Shown: positions 1,636 to 46,312 of the stretch, in pieces | Layout of the letters: the number at the start of each line of letters is the position of its first letter | Position numbering within the stretch: the first letter of the stretch is position 1 | Virus record (IMG/VR): IMGVR_UViG_3300025154_000157 | Coordinates: 1-46,312 of that record | Direction: 5' to 3' (one strand) | Source of the DNA: a virus | DNA: 46,312 nt | The notes under the pieces: model-generated | What the model was told of the DNA's origin: nothing | Database searches by the model: none | The model's input: only the letters and a program-made list of their open reading frames with translations | Position numbers and translations under genes: made by a program

Positions 1636-2210
1636 TGCCTAAAAAAGCAGAAAGAAAACAATTTATACCTACGGCTCAATCTTTTAGAATTATTGAAGGC
1701 AAAGGCTGTTTAGGAAGGGGTTTTTTCGCCCATATATTCGGTGTATGTGAAAAAACCCTTTGGAGTTGGACAAAACAGGGAATTCCTCATTTAACCGAAA
1801 AGAATTACCGGTATTACCCTATTGCCGAAGCTTTAGAGTGGTGGCTTAAAAACGTTTATCAGCTTAAAGAATCAGGCGAAACGATAACAAGAAAAGACCT
1901 TGCTGAAATTAGAAAAAAAGAAGCTGAAGCGGACATAAAAGAACTTGAACTTGCAAAGGTAAAAGGTAACCTTGTTGCTTTTGAAGATATAGCGAAACAG
2001 CTGGCTTTAAGGGCAACATATTTCAAAACAGCTCTTGAAGAAATGCCGAGAAGTAATGCTGTTGAAATAATGAACTGTGAAACAGAAAAAGAAGTTGTTG
2101 AATTTTGGCAAAGATGCAATTCAGAATTATTATCAATATTCTCAGATGAGCTTGAAGTAAGACAGAAAGATGAATTCAGCAAAAATTTACAAAAAGCTGA
2201 TTTGGAATGA
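1635..2210 (+). CDS. terminase small subunit (Nu1-like)
   Basis: 191 aa. An N-terminal winged-helix-like DNA-binding segment (GVCEKTLWSWTKQGIP, about residues 37-52, then YYPIAEALEWW) is followed by a charged helix with RKKEAEADIKELELAKVKG (about 93-111), characteristic of Nu1/gpNu1-type small terminases. The protein recognises the cos region and loads the large subunit. It directly precedes and overlaps the large-subunit gene by 4 nt (ATGA), as in lambda. Confidence 0.85.
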   Translation: MPKKAERKQFIPTAQSFRIIEGKGCLGRGFFAHIFGVCEKTLWSWTKQGIPHLTEKNYRYYPIAEALEWWLKNVYQLKESGETITRKDLAEIRKKEAEADIKELELAKVKGNLVAFEDIAKQLALRATYFKTALEEMPRSNAVEIMNCETEKEVVEFWQRCNSELLSIFSDELEVRQKDEFSKNLQKADLE

Positions 2211-4171
2211 AAGTTTCTAAAACGGTTAAAAACAAGCTTTCCAAGCTGATTGACAACATTAAGTACATTTCTAACCGAGAAATAAACGCATACCGTCCTA
2301 TTGTTAGATTAAGCCCTGTTGAGTGGTGTCAAAAAAACATGGTGCTTGATAAAAAGACAACAAACTATCCCGGAAAGTATAATCCTAATTTAACCCCTTT
2401 TGTTATACCGATAATGAACATTTCCGAGAATCAGGCTGTTGAGGAAATAGTTTTGATGTTTGCCTCTCAGGTAAGCAAAACGGTTATGATGGTAGGTTTG
2501 GCTTTACAAAGCCTTGCCCAAAACGAAGGCTCTCATTTATGGGTTATGGACAGTTCTGATAAAGCAATTAAGATGATCTCAAAACAGAGATTCAAACCAA
2601 CCCTTGATTCATGTCAGATTCTTAAAGAAAGTTTAATTCTTGACGGTGGCAAAGAATCCCTGAAGCATTATAACTTTACAAGGGCGACAATTTCTTTTGT
2701 CGGTGCAAATTCGCCCGGTCAGTTAGCTTCAGATTCAATTAAAAGAATTTTTGCCGATGAAATAGACAAATACCCTGCTGAATTTACATCAGAAGCGGGG
2801 GCGGTTCAGCTTTTAAGGTCAAGAACAAAGGCTTTTAAGTTTGATAAAAAGATGTTTTGGGCTTGCACTCCAACAACAGAAGAAGGAAACATTTATCTTG
2901 AATTTACAAGCACGACACATCAGTATTATTATTTTGTTCCATGCCCTAATTGTCTTGAATTTCAGTTATTAGAAGATAATCAGCTTAAAACATTAAAAGA
3001 ACTTGAATACAGCCCCGAAACAGAAGATGAAATATTAAAGCAGACTTATTACGAATGTAAACACTGTAACAAAGTAATAAGAGAACGGCATAAACCTGAG
3101 ATGTTGAGGAATGGAGAATGGAGAACAAAAGACGGCGAAGAATTGAAGCCAAATAGGAAAATAGCCTTTCAGTTAAGCTCTCTCTATTCCCCTTTTGTTT
3201 CTTTCGGTGCATACAATCTTGAAAGGCTTAAATGTAAAGATAATCCTATACTTTTAAGAGATTTTGCAAACTCTTGGCAGGGTTTGCCTTATAAAGAAAG
3301 AAGTTTGTCTGTAGATAAAGAAGGGCTTGAGGGGCGTTTATCTTTGCACAAAAAAGGAATTGTTCCGAAACAGGCAAGAATAGTTGTCGGCTCAATAGAC
3401 TGCCAGAAAGACCATTATTACTGTCAAAGAATAGCTTTCGGCTATAAATATAAAGCTTGGGTTATAGACTGGTGTAAAGTTCAGACCTTAAAAGAGGCAG
3501 ACGATTATTTTAGGTGTGAAATGCTTTCTAATGACGGGCAGAAAATATATAAAACTAAAAAAGTTGCAATAGATGCAGGATATGAACCGGCTGATGTTTA
3601 TTTGTGGTGTCTGCTTAATCAGGAAAACACCGATTTATATATCCCTGTATTAGGCGCAAGAACAAAAATGCAGAAGAATTTTACAGCAGGGCAGATATTA
3701 TATGACATGCCCTCATTTAACCGGAAAATAAGGGTATACAGGGCAACGGTCAACACGAATGTATATAAAGAAATGATTTACGACAGACTTAATAGAAAAC
3801 CTAATTCAAACGGATCTTTTAATTTATACAGAAACCCTGAAAAAGATTTGTGCAAACAGTTAACAGCAGAAGAAAAACAGGAAAAAAGAGTAAAAGGAAA
3901 GCCTTCAGTATGGGAATGGTTTGTTAAAGGCGAAAACCATTTATTAGACTGTGCTGTTTATAGTTTTTTCCTTGCTGAATATTTGGGTATTTACCGATGG
4001 AATGTTAATCCCGATTACGATAATCATAATAACGAAAATATGTTTCAAGACGAGGATAATAAAAGCCCTTTTATTGAAAAGATAAAAGATATCATGCAGG
4101 AAAAGGAAGAAATAAAGCCCGTCAAAGAAAGAAAAAGAATACAGGCAAGCAATAGGTTTAAAAGACTTTGA
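2207..4171 (+). CDS. terminase large subunit (GpA family)
   Basis: 654 aa, close to the usual length of lambda-type GpA. N-terminal ATPase: a Walker-A-like ASQVSKT at residues 86-92 and Walker B FADEID at 182-187. A zinc-ribbon-like insertion (CPNC ... CKHC) follows at about 246-286. The C-terminal nuclease part has the acidic stretches GSIDCQKD and VAIDAGYE. It pumps DNA into proheads and cuts cos. It ends the first operon; a terminator follows. Confidence 0.93.
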   Translation: MKVSKTVKNKLSKLIDNIKYISNREINAYRPIVRLSPVEWCQKNMVLDKKTTNYPGKYNPNLTPFVIPIMNISENQAVEEIVLMFASQVSKTVMMVGLALQSLAQNEGSHLWVMDSSDKAIKMISKQRFKPTLDSCQILKESLILDGGKESLKHYNFTRATISFVGANSPGQLASDSIKRIFADEIDKYPAEFTSEAGAVQLLRSRTKAFKFDKKMFWACTPTTEEGNIYLEFTSTTHQYYYFVPCPNCLEFQLLEDNQLKTLKELEYSPETEDEILKQTYYECKHCNKVIRERHKPEMLRNGEWRTKDGEELKPNRKIAFQLSSLYSPFVSFGAYNLERLKCKDNPILLRDFANSWQGLPYKERSLSVDKEGLEGRLSLHKKGIVPKQARIVVGSIDCQKDHYYCQRIAFGYKYKAWVIDWCKVQTLKEADDYFRCEMLSNDGQKIYKTKKVAIDAGYEPADVYLWCLLNQENTDLYIPVLGARTKMQKNFTAGQILYDMPSFNRKIRVYRATVNTNVYKEMIYDRLNRKPNSNGSFNLYRNPEKDLCKQLTAEEKQEKRVKGKPSVWEWFVKGENHLLDCAVYSFFLAEYLGIYRWNVNPDYDNHNNENMFQDEDNKSPFIEKIKDIMQEKEEIKPVKERKRIQASNRFKRL

Positions 4172-28273: not shown

Positions 28274-28456
28274 TTAAACTTGGGGTTTGCTTTTTTTATT
28301 ATAGATTGTTTGTTCCCTGCTGTCAAGGAAAATATCAAGCGAATTTTTATCGCCGATACTAATGCAAATCATGTCGCCCTCTTCTAATCCTTCAGGTTTG
28401 ATAAAACCGTGATATAAAGAATCGCGCAGACATTTAATTATTTTACTCGCTTTCAT
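28274..28456 (-). CDS. hypothetical 60-aa protein, last gene of the leftward operon
   Basis: Begins ATGAAAGCG overlapping the stop of the NxGS-repeat gene (ATGA), with GAGG upstream. Contains EGDMICISIGDKNSLDIFLDSREQ, plausibly a small beta fold. No known family recognised. Translational coupling to the repeat gene suggests a joint role. Confidence 0.55.
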   Translation of the reverse strand: MKASKIIKCLRDSLYHGFIKPEGLEEGDMICISIGDKNSLDIFLDSREQTIYNKKSKPQV

Positions 28457-29415
28457 TTTTCACCTCCGCCGTTAAATTTATCCCATCTTTTTTCAGTATA
28501 GTTCGGAAAATTTGAAATATTGCTGAGGTTGCCTTGCTCTATTTCTTTAATTATCTCTTTATATTTATCCTTAAAAACATCAAAAGAAACGCCAGTTGAC
28601 TCGTCAAAACAGGAGCAGTTTTCTTTTGTGCCTTTGTAAGAAATCAAATTAAAAAAACCAACACAGTTTGAGCCTTTGTTCTCCGAGCCTGTGTTCAATG
28701 AGCCTGTGTTCAATGAGCCTTTGTTCCATGAGCCTGTGTTACTTGAGCCTTTGTTCCATGAGCCTTTGTTACTTGAGCCTGTGTTACTTGAGCCTTCGTT
28801 ACTTGAGCCTGTGTTACTTGAGCCTGTGTTCAATGAGCCTGTGTTCTCCGAGCCTTTGTTCCATGAGCCTGTGTTCTCCGAGCCTTTGTTCCATGAGCCT
28901 TTGTTACTTGAGCCTGTGTTCTCCGAGCCTGTGTTCAATGAGCCTGTGTTCTCCGAGCCTTTGTTCCATGAGCCTTTGTTACTTGAGCCTGTGTTCTCCG
29001 AGCCTGTGTTCTCCGAGCCTTTGTTCCATGAGCCTTTGTTACTTGAGCCTTCGTTACTTGAGCCTGTGTTACTTGAGCCTTCGTTACTTGAGCCTGTGTT
29101 CCCTGAGCCTTCGTTACTTGAGCAAAATAAATTTAATTCGGTTAAAATTTCTTCCAAGCTCAACATTTTAAATATCTTTATTTCACTTGTGCAGGTTTTA
29201 TCATTTTCTGTTAAAGTTTCGCCGATAGCTTCTACTTCACAAACTGGATTTTTATAACTAAAATCATAATAGTTATAACAGTTTTTAAGTTTTTCGCAAA
29301 AATGAAAACCATTTTTGCACATAATTAAATTACCCTCGACTTTGTATGTTTTGCCAACTTCAAATTTAAAACCTTTGCAAGTCATATCTGGATTGAAAAC
29401 TTTATACCCTTTCAT
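28453..29415 (-). CDS. DUF7666-like protein with 30 NxGSx pentapeptide repeats
   Basis: 320 aa. Residues 1-95 (KGYKVFNPDMTCKGF, GFHFCEKLKNCYNYYDF, CEVEAIGE) match a domain common in phage proteins that I know as DUF7666 (name from memory). About 100-250 is 30 uninterrupted five-residue units N-[T/K/E]-G-S-[S/W/E/L]. The C-terminal 65 residues (SCFDESTGVSFDVF...RWDKF) form a cap. The repeat resembles Pentapeptide_2-type NxGxx repeats, likely a beta solenoid. Partner unknown. It lies in the early recombination operon. Confidence 0.75.
   Translation of the reverse strand: MKGYKVFNPDMTCKGFKFEVGKTYKVEGNLIMCKNGFHFCEKLKNCYNYYDFSYKNPVCEVEAIGETLTENDKTCTSEIKIFKMLSLEEILTELNLFCSSNEGSGNTGSSNEGSSNTGSSNEGSSNKGSWNKGSENTGSENTGSSNKGSWNKGSENTGSLNTGSENTGSSNKGSWNKGSENTGSWNKGSENTGSLNTGSSNTGSSNEGSSNTGSSNKGSWNKGSSNTGSWNKGSLNTGSLNTGSENKGSNCVGFFNLISYKGTKENCSCFDESTGVSFDVFKDKYKEIIKEIEQGNLSNISNFPNYTEKRWDKFNGGGEK
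28669..29122 (-). repeat. 30 x 15-bp in-frame tandem array
   Basis: On the coding strand each unit is AAC-NNA-GGC-TCA-NNN. Codons 1, 3 and 4 are essentially invariant even at third positions. Codon 2 is ACA, AAA or GAA; codon 5 is AGT, TGG, GAG or TTG in almost every unit. A higher-order block (NxGSS-NKGSW-NKGSE-NTGSx) recurs several times. The array should be prone to slippage and recombination. Confidence 0.9.
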
Positions 29416-30647: not shown

Positions 30648-31187
30648 TTACCAATTTTCTGCCTCAATTTTCGTCATAAAGAAATGTATTCCGTTTGAAC
30701 ATTCGTTCCATCTGTTTTCGTCAAAAAAATCCGGATAAACAGTTTCGCCGTCTTTGTAAGTTATTGATTTTTTATTGTTACATTCGATATATCCTGCTTC
30801 ATTAAAAACTTTAAGCACTTTAACAAACTCAGCCCTGCATTTTCTTGTTGTTGCAGAACTTCTTTTTGCTTCTTCTGGAACAAGCATTTTCACAAGAATG
30901 TTATTTTTTTTACCCCAACATTCAAAAGAACCGGTTTCCGGGCATATAGATTGTATGCCTATTGTATTTTCGTTTATTTTCATTTTGCGCAAATCAGCCC
31001 TGCTTAAATCAGCACTGCGTAAATCAGCCCTGCGTAAATCAGCACCGCGTAAATCAGCCCTGCGTAAATCAGCACCGCGTAAATCAGCACCGCTTAAATT
31101 AATTGAATTAAAATTATTTTTAACACAATATTTATTAAATTCCTCAATATTTTCTTTAAGTAATTGCAACAACTCTTCTTTATTCAT
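30648..31187 (-). CDS. pentapeptide-repeat protein with DUF5758-like C-terminus
   Basis: 179 aa. After a 25-residue helix come about eight A-D-L-x-x units (ADLRG, ADLRR, ADLRS), which form a right-handed quadrilateral beta helix in this superfamily. The C-terminal part (ICPETGSFECWGK, AKRSSATTRKCRAEFVKV, DENRWNECSNGIHFFMT) matches a domain I recall as DUF5758. Pentapeptide helices can mimic DNA, as in Qnr/MfpA gyrase inhibitors, but only eight units are present here. Role unknown. Confidence 0.8.
   Translation of the reverse strand: MNKEELLQLLKENIEEFNKYCVKNNFNSINLSGADLRGADLRRADLRGADLRRADLRSADLSRADLRKMKINENTIGIQSICPETGSFECWGKKNNILVKMLVPEEAKRSSATTRKCRAEFVKVLKVFNEAGYIECNNKKSITYKDGETVYPDFFDENRWNECSNGIHFFMTKIEAENW
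30987..31100 (-). repeat. 15-bp tandem repeats coding the ADLxx units
   Basis: Near-identical AAATCAGCNCNGCGT-type units (as read on the + strand) repeat about seven times in frame. They are more homogeneous than needed for the protein pattern alone, suggesting recent expansion. Confidence 0.75.
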
Positions 31188-39800: not shown

Positions 39801-39906
39801 AATGATAAAACATGAGTTAAACCCTGAAATGTTTTTCTTCCTGACGTATGTCTGCAACGAATATGTAAAGGTTTATCCTGTGGTTAACAGGGGTTATAAT
39901 GGATAA
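39757..39906 (+). CDS. 49-aa hypothetical protein
   Basis: ATG at 39757 with AGAGGGA upstream is preferred to an in-frame TTG at 39718. MQDKINQAVEEIKIEMIKHE then MFFFLTYVCNEYVKVYP. It overlaps the end of the coiled-coil gene and the start of the methyltransferase-like gene. No family known. Confidence 0.5.
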   Translation: MQDKINQAVEEIKIEMIKHELNPEMFFFLTYVCNEYVKVYPVVNRGYNG

Positions 39907-40570
39907 ATTTGTTTTATCTTTATTTGATTTTACAGGAAATATGGTTGATAAATGGGCTGAAAATGGGTATAAGTGTTATATTGTCGACATAAAGCACCAG
40001 AAAGGAATAAAGGAAATTAGAAAAAATGTTTTTGCTGTAAAGTGGGATTTGTCAACCGAAAATGGGCTTTTGGAATACATTGGGGTTAAAAATTATTTTA
40101 TTGCCTTTGCTTTCCCGCCTTGTACACATCTTGCCGTTTGTGGGGCTGTATGGTTTAAAAATAAAGGTTTAAGATGTTTGGCAGAATCTATAAGTTTTTT
40201 TGCGACAGCGGTTGAAATATTTGAATATCTTAAATGCCCTTATTTTTTAGAAAATCCCGTGTCAACAATATCGACATATTGGCGAAATCCTGATTATACA
40301 TTTAACCCTTATGAGTTTACAGCTTTTTGCAAAGACGACAATTACACTAAAAAAACTTGCTTATGGATAGGCAACGGATTTAACTTACCTTCAAAAAAAA
40401 TAAATTACAGTCAGGAAAAACCAGACCAAAGAATTATAAATGCTTTTGCAACACATAACAAAAAAGAATGGGCGGATTTTAGAAGTAAGACCCCAAAAGG
40501 TTTTGCTGAAGCTGTGTATCTTGCAAATTGCGAAAACAGCATTAAAGCCATTCAGCAAAACTTGTTTTAA
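39899..40570 (+). CDS. C5-cytosine DNA methyltransferase-like protein
   Basis: 223 aa. Motif I-like LSLFDFTGNMVDKW (residues 6-19) with Asp30 as motif II acid, catalytic motif IV AFPPCTHL (Cys75) and motif VI FLENPVS (ENP at 118-120). The target-recognition part is very short, like other compact phage enzymes. It may protect phage DNA from host restriction. Whether the product is 5-methylcytosine or another base change cannot be read from sequence. Confidence 0.78.
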   Translation: MDKFVLSLFDFTGNMVDKWAENGYKCYIVDIKHQKGIKEIRKNVFAVKWDLSTENGLLEYIGVKNYFIAFAFPPCTHLAVCGAVWFKNKGLRCLAESISFFATAVEIFEYLKCPYFLENPVSTISTYWRNPDYTFNPYEFTAFCKDDNYTKKTCLWIGNGFNLPSKKINYSQEKPDQRIINAFATHNKKEWADFRSKTPKGFAEAVYLANCENSIKAIQQNLF

Positions 40571-41810: not shown

Positions 41811-42064
41811 ATTGTGTTATATGTGGAAAAGAGCTTGAACACGAACCAACAAGAGAAGCTAAAGACCATTATGAAGATGAAGGCTATGAAAGCCCTCAGG
41901 TTTGCAGTAATGAATGTTATGATAAGCTAACAGAGGTTTGCGGCGATTGTGATTATTCAAACGATTGTCAAGGCGATTTAGATGATTGTATTTTTGAATT
42001 TGAAAGGAATAAAAATGAACAAATTAATATTAACAGGCAGATTAACAAGAGATGCAGAAATTAA
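41807..42064 (+). CDS. zinc-finger protein, 85 aa
   Basis: CVICGKELEHEP at the start and CSNECY at 32-37, then CGDCDYSNDC, giving two possible metal sites in an acidic protein. Its last 50 nt overlap the SSB start in another frame, an unusually long overlap. Confidence 0.6.
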   Translation: MNCVICGKELEHEPTREAKDHYEDEGYESPQVCSNECYDKLTEVCGDCDYSNDCQGDLDDCIFEFERNKNEQININRQINKRCRN

Positions 42065-42362
42065 ATTTGCAAAAACAGGCACATCAATAATTGAGTTTGA
42101 CATTGCAAATAATACAGGGTACGGAGAATACAAAAAGACTTGCTTTATTGGTTGCACAATATTCAAGCGGGATAAATTAGTTGACCACCTTAAAAAAGGT
42201 AAAGGGGTTATTGTAGAAGGTGAACTACAGCAGGACAATTGGGAGAAAGACGGCAAGAAATTTAGTAAACACAAAATGATTGTTGCCCAGTTGGAGTTTT
42301 TGGGGGAAAAAAAGGGAAGTGAAACCGAAGAAACACATACAGACGATGATATTCCGTTTTAA
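42015..42362 (+). CDS. ssb: single-stranded DNA-binding protein
   Basis: 115 aa from ATG 42015 (AAAGGAAT upstream; 41982 is inside the previous gene). OB fold with MNKLILTGRLTRDAEIKF, IIEFDIANN, KKTCFIGCTIF, GVIVEGELQQDNWEKDG, and the acidic DDDIPF tail that recruits partners. Protects single strands at phage forks and cooperates with RecT. Confidence 0.93.
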   Translation: MNKLILTGRLTRDAEIKFAKTGTSIIEFDIANNTGYGEYKKTCFIGCTIFKRDKLVDHLKKGKGVIVEGELQQDNWEKDGKKFSKHKMIVAQLEFLGEKKGSETEETHTDDDIPF

Positions 42363-42373
42363 CAAGGGGCAAC

Positions 42374-42574
42374 ATGAACAAAGAAAATCTAACACTTGCA
42401 ACACGGATAAGTTTTAAAGAACTGCAAATAATTAATAAATACTGCAAAAAGCTGAAAATGAAGAAAGGCATATTTGTTAAGTATTGCGTAAATCAAATTA
42501 TAAAAGCGATTAACAGAAGGGAGATTAAAAAGAATGCAGGGATTAACATTACCGCAGATAAAAGAATTTTATAA
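42374..42574 (+). CDS. ribbon-helix-helix-like protein, 66 aa
   Basis: LTLATRISFKELQIINKYCKKL is a ribbon plus helix, KKGIFVKYCVNQIIKAINRR the second helix: consistent with a ribbon-helix-helix DNA-binding fold. AAGGGG site. Overlaps the glycosyltransferase-like start by 41 nt, so the two are closely coupled. Confidence 0.6.
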   Translation: MNKENLTLATRISFKELQIINKYCKKLKMKKGIFVKYCVNQIIKAINRREIKKNAGINITADKRIL

Positions 42575-43781
42575 CAGGAATGAAACAGATGATCTTGAAA
42601 AATTAAGCTATGAAATGTTTACATTGGGAAATTGTGTAAACGATTCGCTTGTTGGTGTAAAAAACATTTTAATGAATAATGAATATATATCCGGAGCAAT
42701 GGACATTACCGATTTGAGAAAACTTTACAAGGCAAAAGAAGCCATTATAATTGCAGGTGGCTGGTCTATTGATGAAAACATTGAAGAGATTAAAAGATTA
42801 AGTAAAAACAGGCTTGTAATAAGTTGTGATACAGGGTTAAGAATATTGAATCAGCACGGCATAAGCCCTGATTTTGTAACAACACTTGAAAGGGTTGAAG
42901 AGTGTGCAAGGCTTCTTAAATTTGAAAATGAAAAAGGTAATGAAACAGTTTTTGTTTCTTCGATGGTTGTCGATTCTCTTGTTATGGAAGAAATGATAAA
43001 GAAAAAGCATTATGCCTTTTGCAGATTTAAGAATAACAGCGTATTTGACCTGAGCTATAAGTTCGGTGAACTCGAACAATGCAATAGTTCGGCGACAATG
43101 GCTCTTTCTCTTGCTGATTTTCTTGGTGTAGAAACTGTTTATTTGTTCGGGCAGGATTTATGCTTGTCGGACAATGATAAGACACATTCTCAAGGGGCCG
43201 AATACGGTAATGAACAGCCTAATTGTTATAAGAACCTTTCTTTATGTTTGTGCAATGACGGCAATTATAGGAAAACTAATTCAATCTGGAAAGCTTTCGC
43301 CTTTGACATTGAAAGGATAAGAACAAATGCAGACAGCTTAAAGAAAATCTATAACACGAATGAAAAAGCAATGCACCTTCCGGGGGTTTCTGTTATAGAT
43401 GCAAAAACTATAAAGCTTATTGCAAACGGAAAGCCTATTGTAAAACCCGAACATCTTAATTCAGTTAAATTATTAAGAAGAAAGCCTAACTACACTGCAA
43501 CAATAAACGGTCTTGAATACTGGATTAAAAAGATTGATTATACCGTTGTTTTTACACCGGGAGATGTTGATGAATGGAATAAGTATATCAAGGGTAGTGA
43601 GTGGCTTAAAAACCTATTGCAGGGGCTTTCTTTAGCAACTTATTTAATCTATGACGACAGGGAAGAATATTTTTATAAGATGTTTAATGCAGTTGTTTCA
43701 ATACTTAGGGTGGTAAAGGGTGTTTTTGAATTAAACAGGGTGGGTATCCAGAATTTTGACATGGGGGAAAATCATGATTGA
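42534..43781 (+). CDS. Maf/DUF115 (MptE-like) glycosyltransferase-like protein
   Basis: 415 aa with GGGAG upstream. Residues about 68-125 (EAIIIAGGWSIDENIEEIK, RLVISCDTGLRILNQHGI, SPDFVTTLER) and 196-215 (FLGVETVYLFGQDLC) match the DUF115 core of motility-associated factors that add pseudaminic or legionaminic acid-type sugars to flagellin, and of MptE-like enzymes. GGWS replaces the commoner GPS in the nucleotide-binding turn. Last intact gene of the early operon; a phage copy is unusual and might alter host flagella or surface glycans. Confidence 0.75.
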   Translation: MQGLTLPQIKEFYNRNETDDLEKLSYEMFTLGNCVNDSLVGVKNILMNNEYISGAMDITDLRKLYKAKEAIIIAGGWSIDENIEEIKRLSKNRLVISCDTGLRILNQHGISPDFVTTLERVEECARLLKFENEKGNETVFVSSMVVDSLVMEEMIKKKHYAFCRFKNNSVFDLSYKFGELEQCNSSATMALSLADFLGVETVYLFGQDLCLSDNDKTHSQGAEYGNEQPNCYKNLSLCLCNDGNYRKTNSIWKAFAFDIERIRTNADSLKKIYNTNEKAMHLPGVSVIDAKTIKLIANGKPIVKPEHLNSVKLLRRKPNYTATINGLEYWIKKIDYTVVFTPGDVDEWNKYIKGSEWLKNLLQGLSLATYLIYDDREEYFYKMFNAVVSILRVVKGVFELNRVGIQNFDMGENHD

Positions 43782-46299: not shown

Positions 46300-46312
46300 G
46301 GTCGAAATGCCT
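46300..46312. repeat. right copy of 13-bp terminal repeat (putative cohesive end)
   Basis: Exact copy of the first 13 bases. Joining the ends would give a unique circle of about 46,299 bp with the overhang sequence present once. A 13-bp overlap is much shorter than usual assembler k-mer overlaps, which favours real phage ends over an assembly artefact. Confidence 0.6.

Follow-up and report, generated by a model that had tools for sequence, protein, structure and literature searches.

We found that a gene near the right-hand end of a virus contig from IMG/VR (46,312 b, analysed over its whole length and hereafter called the window) encodes a Maf-like protein of 415 amino acids, which lacks the N-terminal domain of the family and carries altered residues in two near-invariant loops. 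Bacterial Maf/PseD proteins have a cytoplasmic GT42-like fold and transfer pseudaminic or legionaminic acid from the CMP-sugar to Ser/Thr of flagellin; Maf enzymes are thus known as flagellin-specific bacterial transferases. The gene at positions 42534–43781 (plus strand) would be a shortened derivative of such a nonulosonic-acid transferase. Our preferred reading, to which we assign a probability of about 0.45, is that its product is a transferase descended from Maf that handles its donor differently and has as its target a protein made by the host or by the phage.

The window contains genes for a GpA-type terminase (2207–4171, plus strand), a lambda-type portal, capsid, tail tube and tape measure, as well as RecT, a YqaJ nuclease, a replisome organiser and a DnaB helicase. 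The Maf-like frame runs from an ATG at 42534 to a stop ending at 43781, exactly where the sequence-only reading had placed it, and is preceded by AGAAGGGAG (42515–42523, plus strand), a probable ribosome-binding site. Its codon usage agrees with that of the other genes of the phage, the frame scoring 0.27 bits per codon and both remaining forward frames scoring below zero, and 20 shuffled windows contained no open run longer than 230 codons, against 415 here. It is a genuine coding gene. It comes after the replication genes and away from the head genes, with the SSB gene (41982–42362, plus strand) upstream and an ORF of 66 amino acids (42374–42574) between the two; the early-operon placement proposed earlier is consistent with this position soon after the SSB gene. 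The gene would lie about 4.7 kb upstream of the terminase only if the contig ends join, circularity being an assumption. A 13-b sequence, GGTCGAAATGCCT, is identical at 1–13 and 46300–46312 and could be either the core of an att site or a short overlap left by assembly. Elsewhere in the window, two pentapeptide-repeat proteins with DUF7666 and DUF5758 are encoded at 28453–29415 and 30648–31187 (minus strand), adjoining a Holliday junction resolvase and recombination genes, and the gene at 39899–40570 matched PHROG 757 ('DNA methyltransferase') and had no Pfam match. The terminase was closest to those of clostridial prophages (32%, 1e-81), not to spirochaetal ones, which suggests a Bacillota host. 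No DUF115 gene was found upstream of the nearest clostridial prophage terminases, as far as those contigs extend.

By its sequence the protein is a member of the DUF115/MptE-like family, and the membership that had been proposed from the letters alone was borne out by profile search. PF01973 matched residues 43–213 (42660–43172, plus strand) over model positions 1–170 of 171 with E = 1.4e-29 and 103.5 bits, above the curated gathering cut-off of 34.6, and an independent core profile, built with the window protein left out, recovered it at 207 bits. Three lines of evidence place it with Maf rather than with MptE. The sole PDB sequence match at E <= 1 in phmmer was the Magnetospirillum Maf 5mu5 (3.5e-9), MptE not being among the matches; the NCBIfam PseD model (flagellin modification protein) matched at 2e-32 over model positions 181–445 of 640; and 5mu5 was also the best Foldseek match (2.6e-13) of the AlphaFold2 model (pTM 0.82, alignment of 43 sequences), with the HPPK/MptE of M. 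jannaschii second (4e-6). The score against NCBIfam NF050051 (112.6 bits) is below the cut-off of 670 bits, as is that of the full-length phage Maf of contig L137 (168.1 bits). Maf-type homology continues past PF01973, with the helical linker GN..D.L.G, LER and an N-x-x-E region, so that the Maf-specific region after residue 213 is kept. Archaeal MptE, the 6-hydroxymethylpterin pyrophosphokinase (PDB 8sd5), shares the Pfam family and the core fold; it is, however, about 215–240 amino acids long and lacks this region, and the likeness of the window protein to it is at the level of a shared fold only. The GT42 sialyltransferase CstII, which acts on oligosaccharides, is weakly similar in fold (E 4.9e-3, TM 0.33/0.51) and gave no sequence match. 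DUF115 was also considered as a BREX part and rejected, the one BREX paper being a word match to DUF1156.

The designation as a Maf glycosyltransferase-like protein thus held for the closest characterised relatives, which are Maf/PseD in PDB, fold and NCBIfam comparisons, and failed for the N-terminal domain, the GPS and TEGG motifs and the gene linkage. The Rossmann-like N-terminal domain of Maf, of about 170 amino acids, is missing: the protein starts at the domain boundary, the PseD match begins only at model position 181, and there is no room for the domain, since the SSB gene and the 66-aa ORF sit upstream. Among 44 bacterial relatives measured for length, drawn from 84,980 genomes, nearly all had 554–1185 amino acids (the exceptions were one fragment and one protein of 397), and almost all carried the extra N-terminal domain. 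In the core, GGWS at residues 75–78 (42756–42767, plus strand) replaces the xGPS loop of the family, W77 standing where P is found in 147 of 147 relatives, and NTNEKA (43353–43370, plus strand) replaces the Maf motif N-x-T-E-G-G, A279 standing where the second G is found in 144 of 145. The GGWS that had been taken as the core is therefore present, but as a departure from GPSL and not as the normal family core; GPS is present in MptE itself. The caution expressed earlier over GGWS and nucleotide-sugar binding was justified: with P invariant at this position, donor binding should not be assumed. Other core residues (G76, S78, P112, D113, E119, G206, D208, H218, T248, N274 and E277) are kept in comparison with about 147 relatives. 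The C-terminal helical region (residues 320–403; 43491–43742, plus strand) was modelled with moderate to low confidence (pLDDT about 54–76). The Maf of Magnetospirillum magneticum (5mu5) and CbMaf of Clostridium botulinum (PMC11339370) have the DUF115/Maf_flag10 core in common with the window protein, which differs from them in lacking the N-terminal domain, in its short and poorly modelled C-terminal helices, in having GGWS for GPSL and NEKA for TEGG, and in the absence of flagellar and sugar genes nearby.

In INPHARED (50,697 named phage records), tblastn found no homologue of the window protein, five matches at E 4–7 being chance, and none of the full-length phage Maf or the NeuB of contig L083. 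IMG/VR yielded nothing when searched with the window protein alone and then with a thin alignment; relatives came out only with a richer alignment, which recovered about 27 contigs encoding Maf proteins. The DNA pattern GGWSI[DE]xN occurred in 13 IMG/VR contigs, all unrelated chance matches, and thus gave no GGWS kin; the window's portal protein had no IMG/VR kin either. In the tree, 14 phage Mafs grouped in a single clade with strong support (SH-aLRT 99). Near this clade the window protein stood alone at the end of a long branch (1.86 changes per column), and no well-supported branch joined the two. BFVD/UniProt contained proteins of uncultured Caudovirales that bear the label MptE-like and share the fold at 10–16% identity, so phage DUF115 proteins are already in the databases; their function is undescribed.

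The 14 phage-clade Mafs are full-length. Most of their genes immediately precede the terminase gene and follow a pathway of the pseudaminic/legionaminic type. In contigs L083, L087 and L135–L141 the order was CTP transferase, Gfo/Idh, DegT, GNAT, formyltransferase, NeuB and PseB, followed by maf, terL, portal, protease and capsid, read as far as the contigs reach; some genes are missing or unrecognised in some of them, and contig ends cut some of the clusters. With about 213 amino acids, the NeuB homologues in these contigs are short. This conserved set of pathway and Maf (L083, L087 with L130–L132, and L135–L141) is probably of more interest than the window gene. Contig L143 has a distinct set (NeuB, the UDP-GlcNAc 2-epimerase NeuC, cytidylyltransferase, maf and terL), which is a second, sialic/legionaminic-like route; the same stretch (L143:2081–13723) also carries a ribonucleotide reductase gene. 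In L090, L091 and L093 a third arrangement was found, with terL3, GNAT, NeuB, PseB, cytidylyltransferase and a Maf of 461–477 amino acids. The cluster enzymes were recognised by Pfam/NCBIfam as PseB (353 bits), PseC (3e-52), PseI (1.5e-7) and CTP_transf_3, all under the NCBIfam equivalog cut-offs with the sole exception of the NeuC of L143. The same gene order recurs across metagenomic contigs of different IMG/VR sample numbers and of 32–47% GC, which argues against chimeras. A high-GC phage (L144:484–1995) has a Maf with the degenerate motif NVNASGA, near a lambda-type portal similar to that of the window. A B12-binding radical SAM protein accompanies the sugar cluster in L083, with relatives in L087/L132 and L141, and an amidase does so in L096; these enzymes may make unusual sugar derivatives. 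It appears that phages do make use of Maf-based protein glycosylation, with the window gene as an apparent reduced outlier of this strategy. In a body of literature with few subscription papers and preprints, we found no description of a phage with a nonulosonate pathway plus a Maf, and this absence is weak evidence. Phage genes altering nonulosonate decoration have been reported, namely EpaA/EpaB of Acinetobacter baumannii prophages (PMC12053666) and O-acetyltransferases (PMC6586298); these alter a capsule sugar, the pseudaminic acid of Acinetobacter, and neither its synthesis nor its transfer to protein is ascribed to them. They and the virion glycosylation of mycobacteriophages are the nearest cases that we found.

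No homologue of the sugar-synthesis genes of the relatives' contigs was found among the proteins of the window, the larger ORFs of which were checked by Pfam, and no flagellin or nonulosonate genes were recognised in it. Such genes do accompany bacterial and phage relatives, and a clostridial Maf of the comparison set has three genes for flagellin around it, together with FlaG, FliD and FlgK. Any nonulosonate used by the window protein would have to come from the host. The other role offered in the sequence-only reading, remodelling of host flagella or surface glycans to keep out competing phages, is a conjecture for a window in which no sugar-donor genes were recognised. We infer each step from homology to activity as follows. 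The protein would be made early in infection, would still recognise a Maf-type donor or acceptor, and would act on a host- or phage-made protein with a host-derived sugar nucleotide, its donor handling being altered. Counted against a transferase are W77 and A279 at near-invariant sites, the lack of donor-synthesis homologues in the window, and the position as an orphan long branch not tied to the phage clade, with relatives too distant for a selection test.

The protein could be such an altered transferase, or else a Maf mimic that is catalytically dead. As the latter, it would have the fold without the chemistry and bind host flagellin, Maf or donor, blocking flagellin glycosylation and so stopping motility or the flagellum-dependent attachment of other phages. 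Judged from the sequence, this is less likely than the altered transferase but credible: the two altered loops within an otherwise retained core favour it, but changes in loops need not inactivate a glycosyltransferase, and a number of conserved residues, D208 and H218 among them, persist. A phage protein in a similar vein is Gp047/FlaGrab of Campylobacter phage NCTC 12673, which is reported to bind flagellar pseudaminic acid and to slow host growth (PMC4690887, PMC7099621); as described there, it aims at flagellar nonulosonates as a glycan binder, not a transferase.

The remaining explanations are less likely than either the altered transferase or the mimic. An active transferase could decorate the phage's own virion proteins with a host-made sugar, as would be favoured by related phages, where maf immediately precedes the run of terL, portal, protease and capsid genes; mycobacteriophages are an established case of virions glycosylated by phage enzymes (Freeman 2023, cited in PMC12619734). 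The location of the window gene after replication rather than head genes, the motif changes and the missing donor genes make this unlikely. That the gene is a decaying relic of a host-acquired Maf, now drifting, is more unlikely still; truncation, the loss of two key residues, the long branch and the lack of close kin agree with decay, but a frame of 415 codons remains intact, with phage-like codon usage, a good ribosome-binding site and conserved core residues. Very improbable, finally, is an MptE-like 6-hydroxymethylpterin pyrophosphokinase or other nucleotide/pterin enzyme, a role that the sequence-only reading had offered and that we set aside. The Pfam family name and the second-best fold match would fit it, but phmmer recovered Maf and not MptE, the MptE fold match was the weaker, the region beyond residue 213 is of the Maf type, the window showed no recognisable pterin genes, and the GPS of MptE itself is what the window protein has lost.

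The question raised by the window protein is the narrower one: can a Maf core that has lost the N-terminal domain and the GPS/TEGG loops still work, or interfere? On a broader scale, we tentatively hypothesize, as a possibility only, that tailed phages run complete nonulosonic-acid protein-glycosylation systems, with their own sugar synthesis and a Maf encoded next to the packaging genes, decorating virions or host flagellin during infection; the window gene would then be an offshoot that lost the N-terminal domain and had its donor site rebuilt, working on host sugar or as a Maf antagonist. The basis for this is the monophyletic phage Maf branch and its fixed order with a pseudaminic/legionaminic-type pathway, terminase, portal and capsid. 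If true, phages would both make sugars resembling sialic acid and link them to proteins, with consequences for the surface chemistry of virions, for the recognition of phages by the immune system and for phage–flagellum interactions. The intact phage Mafs and their sugar genes point to a means of coating proteins with sugar that has seldom been described in phages.
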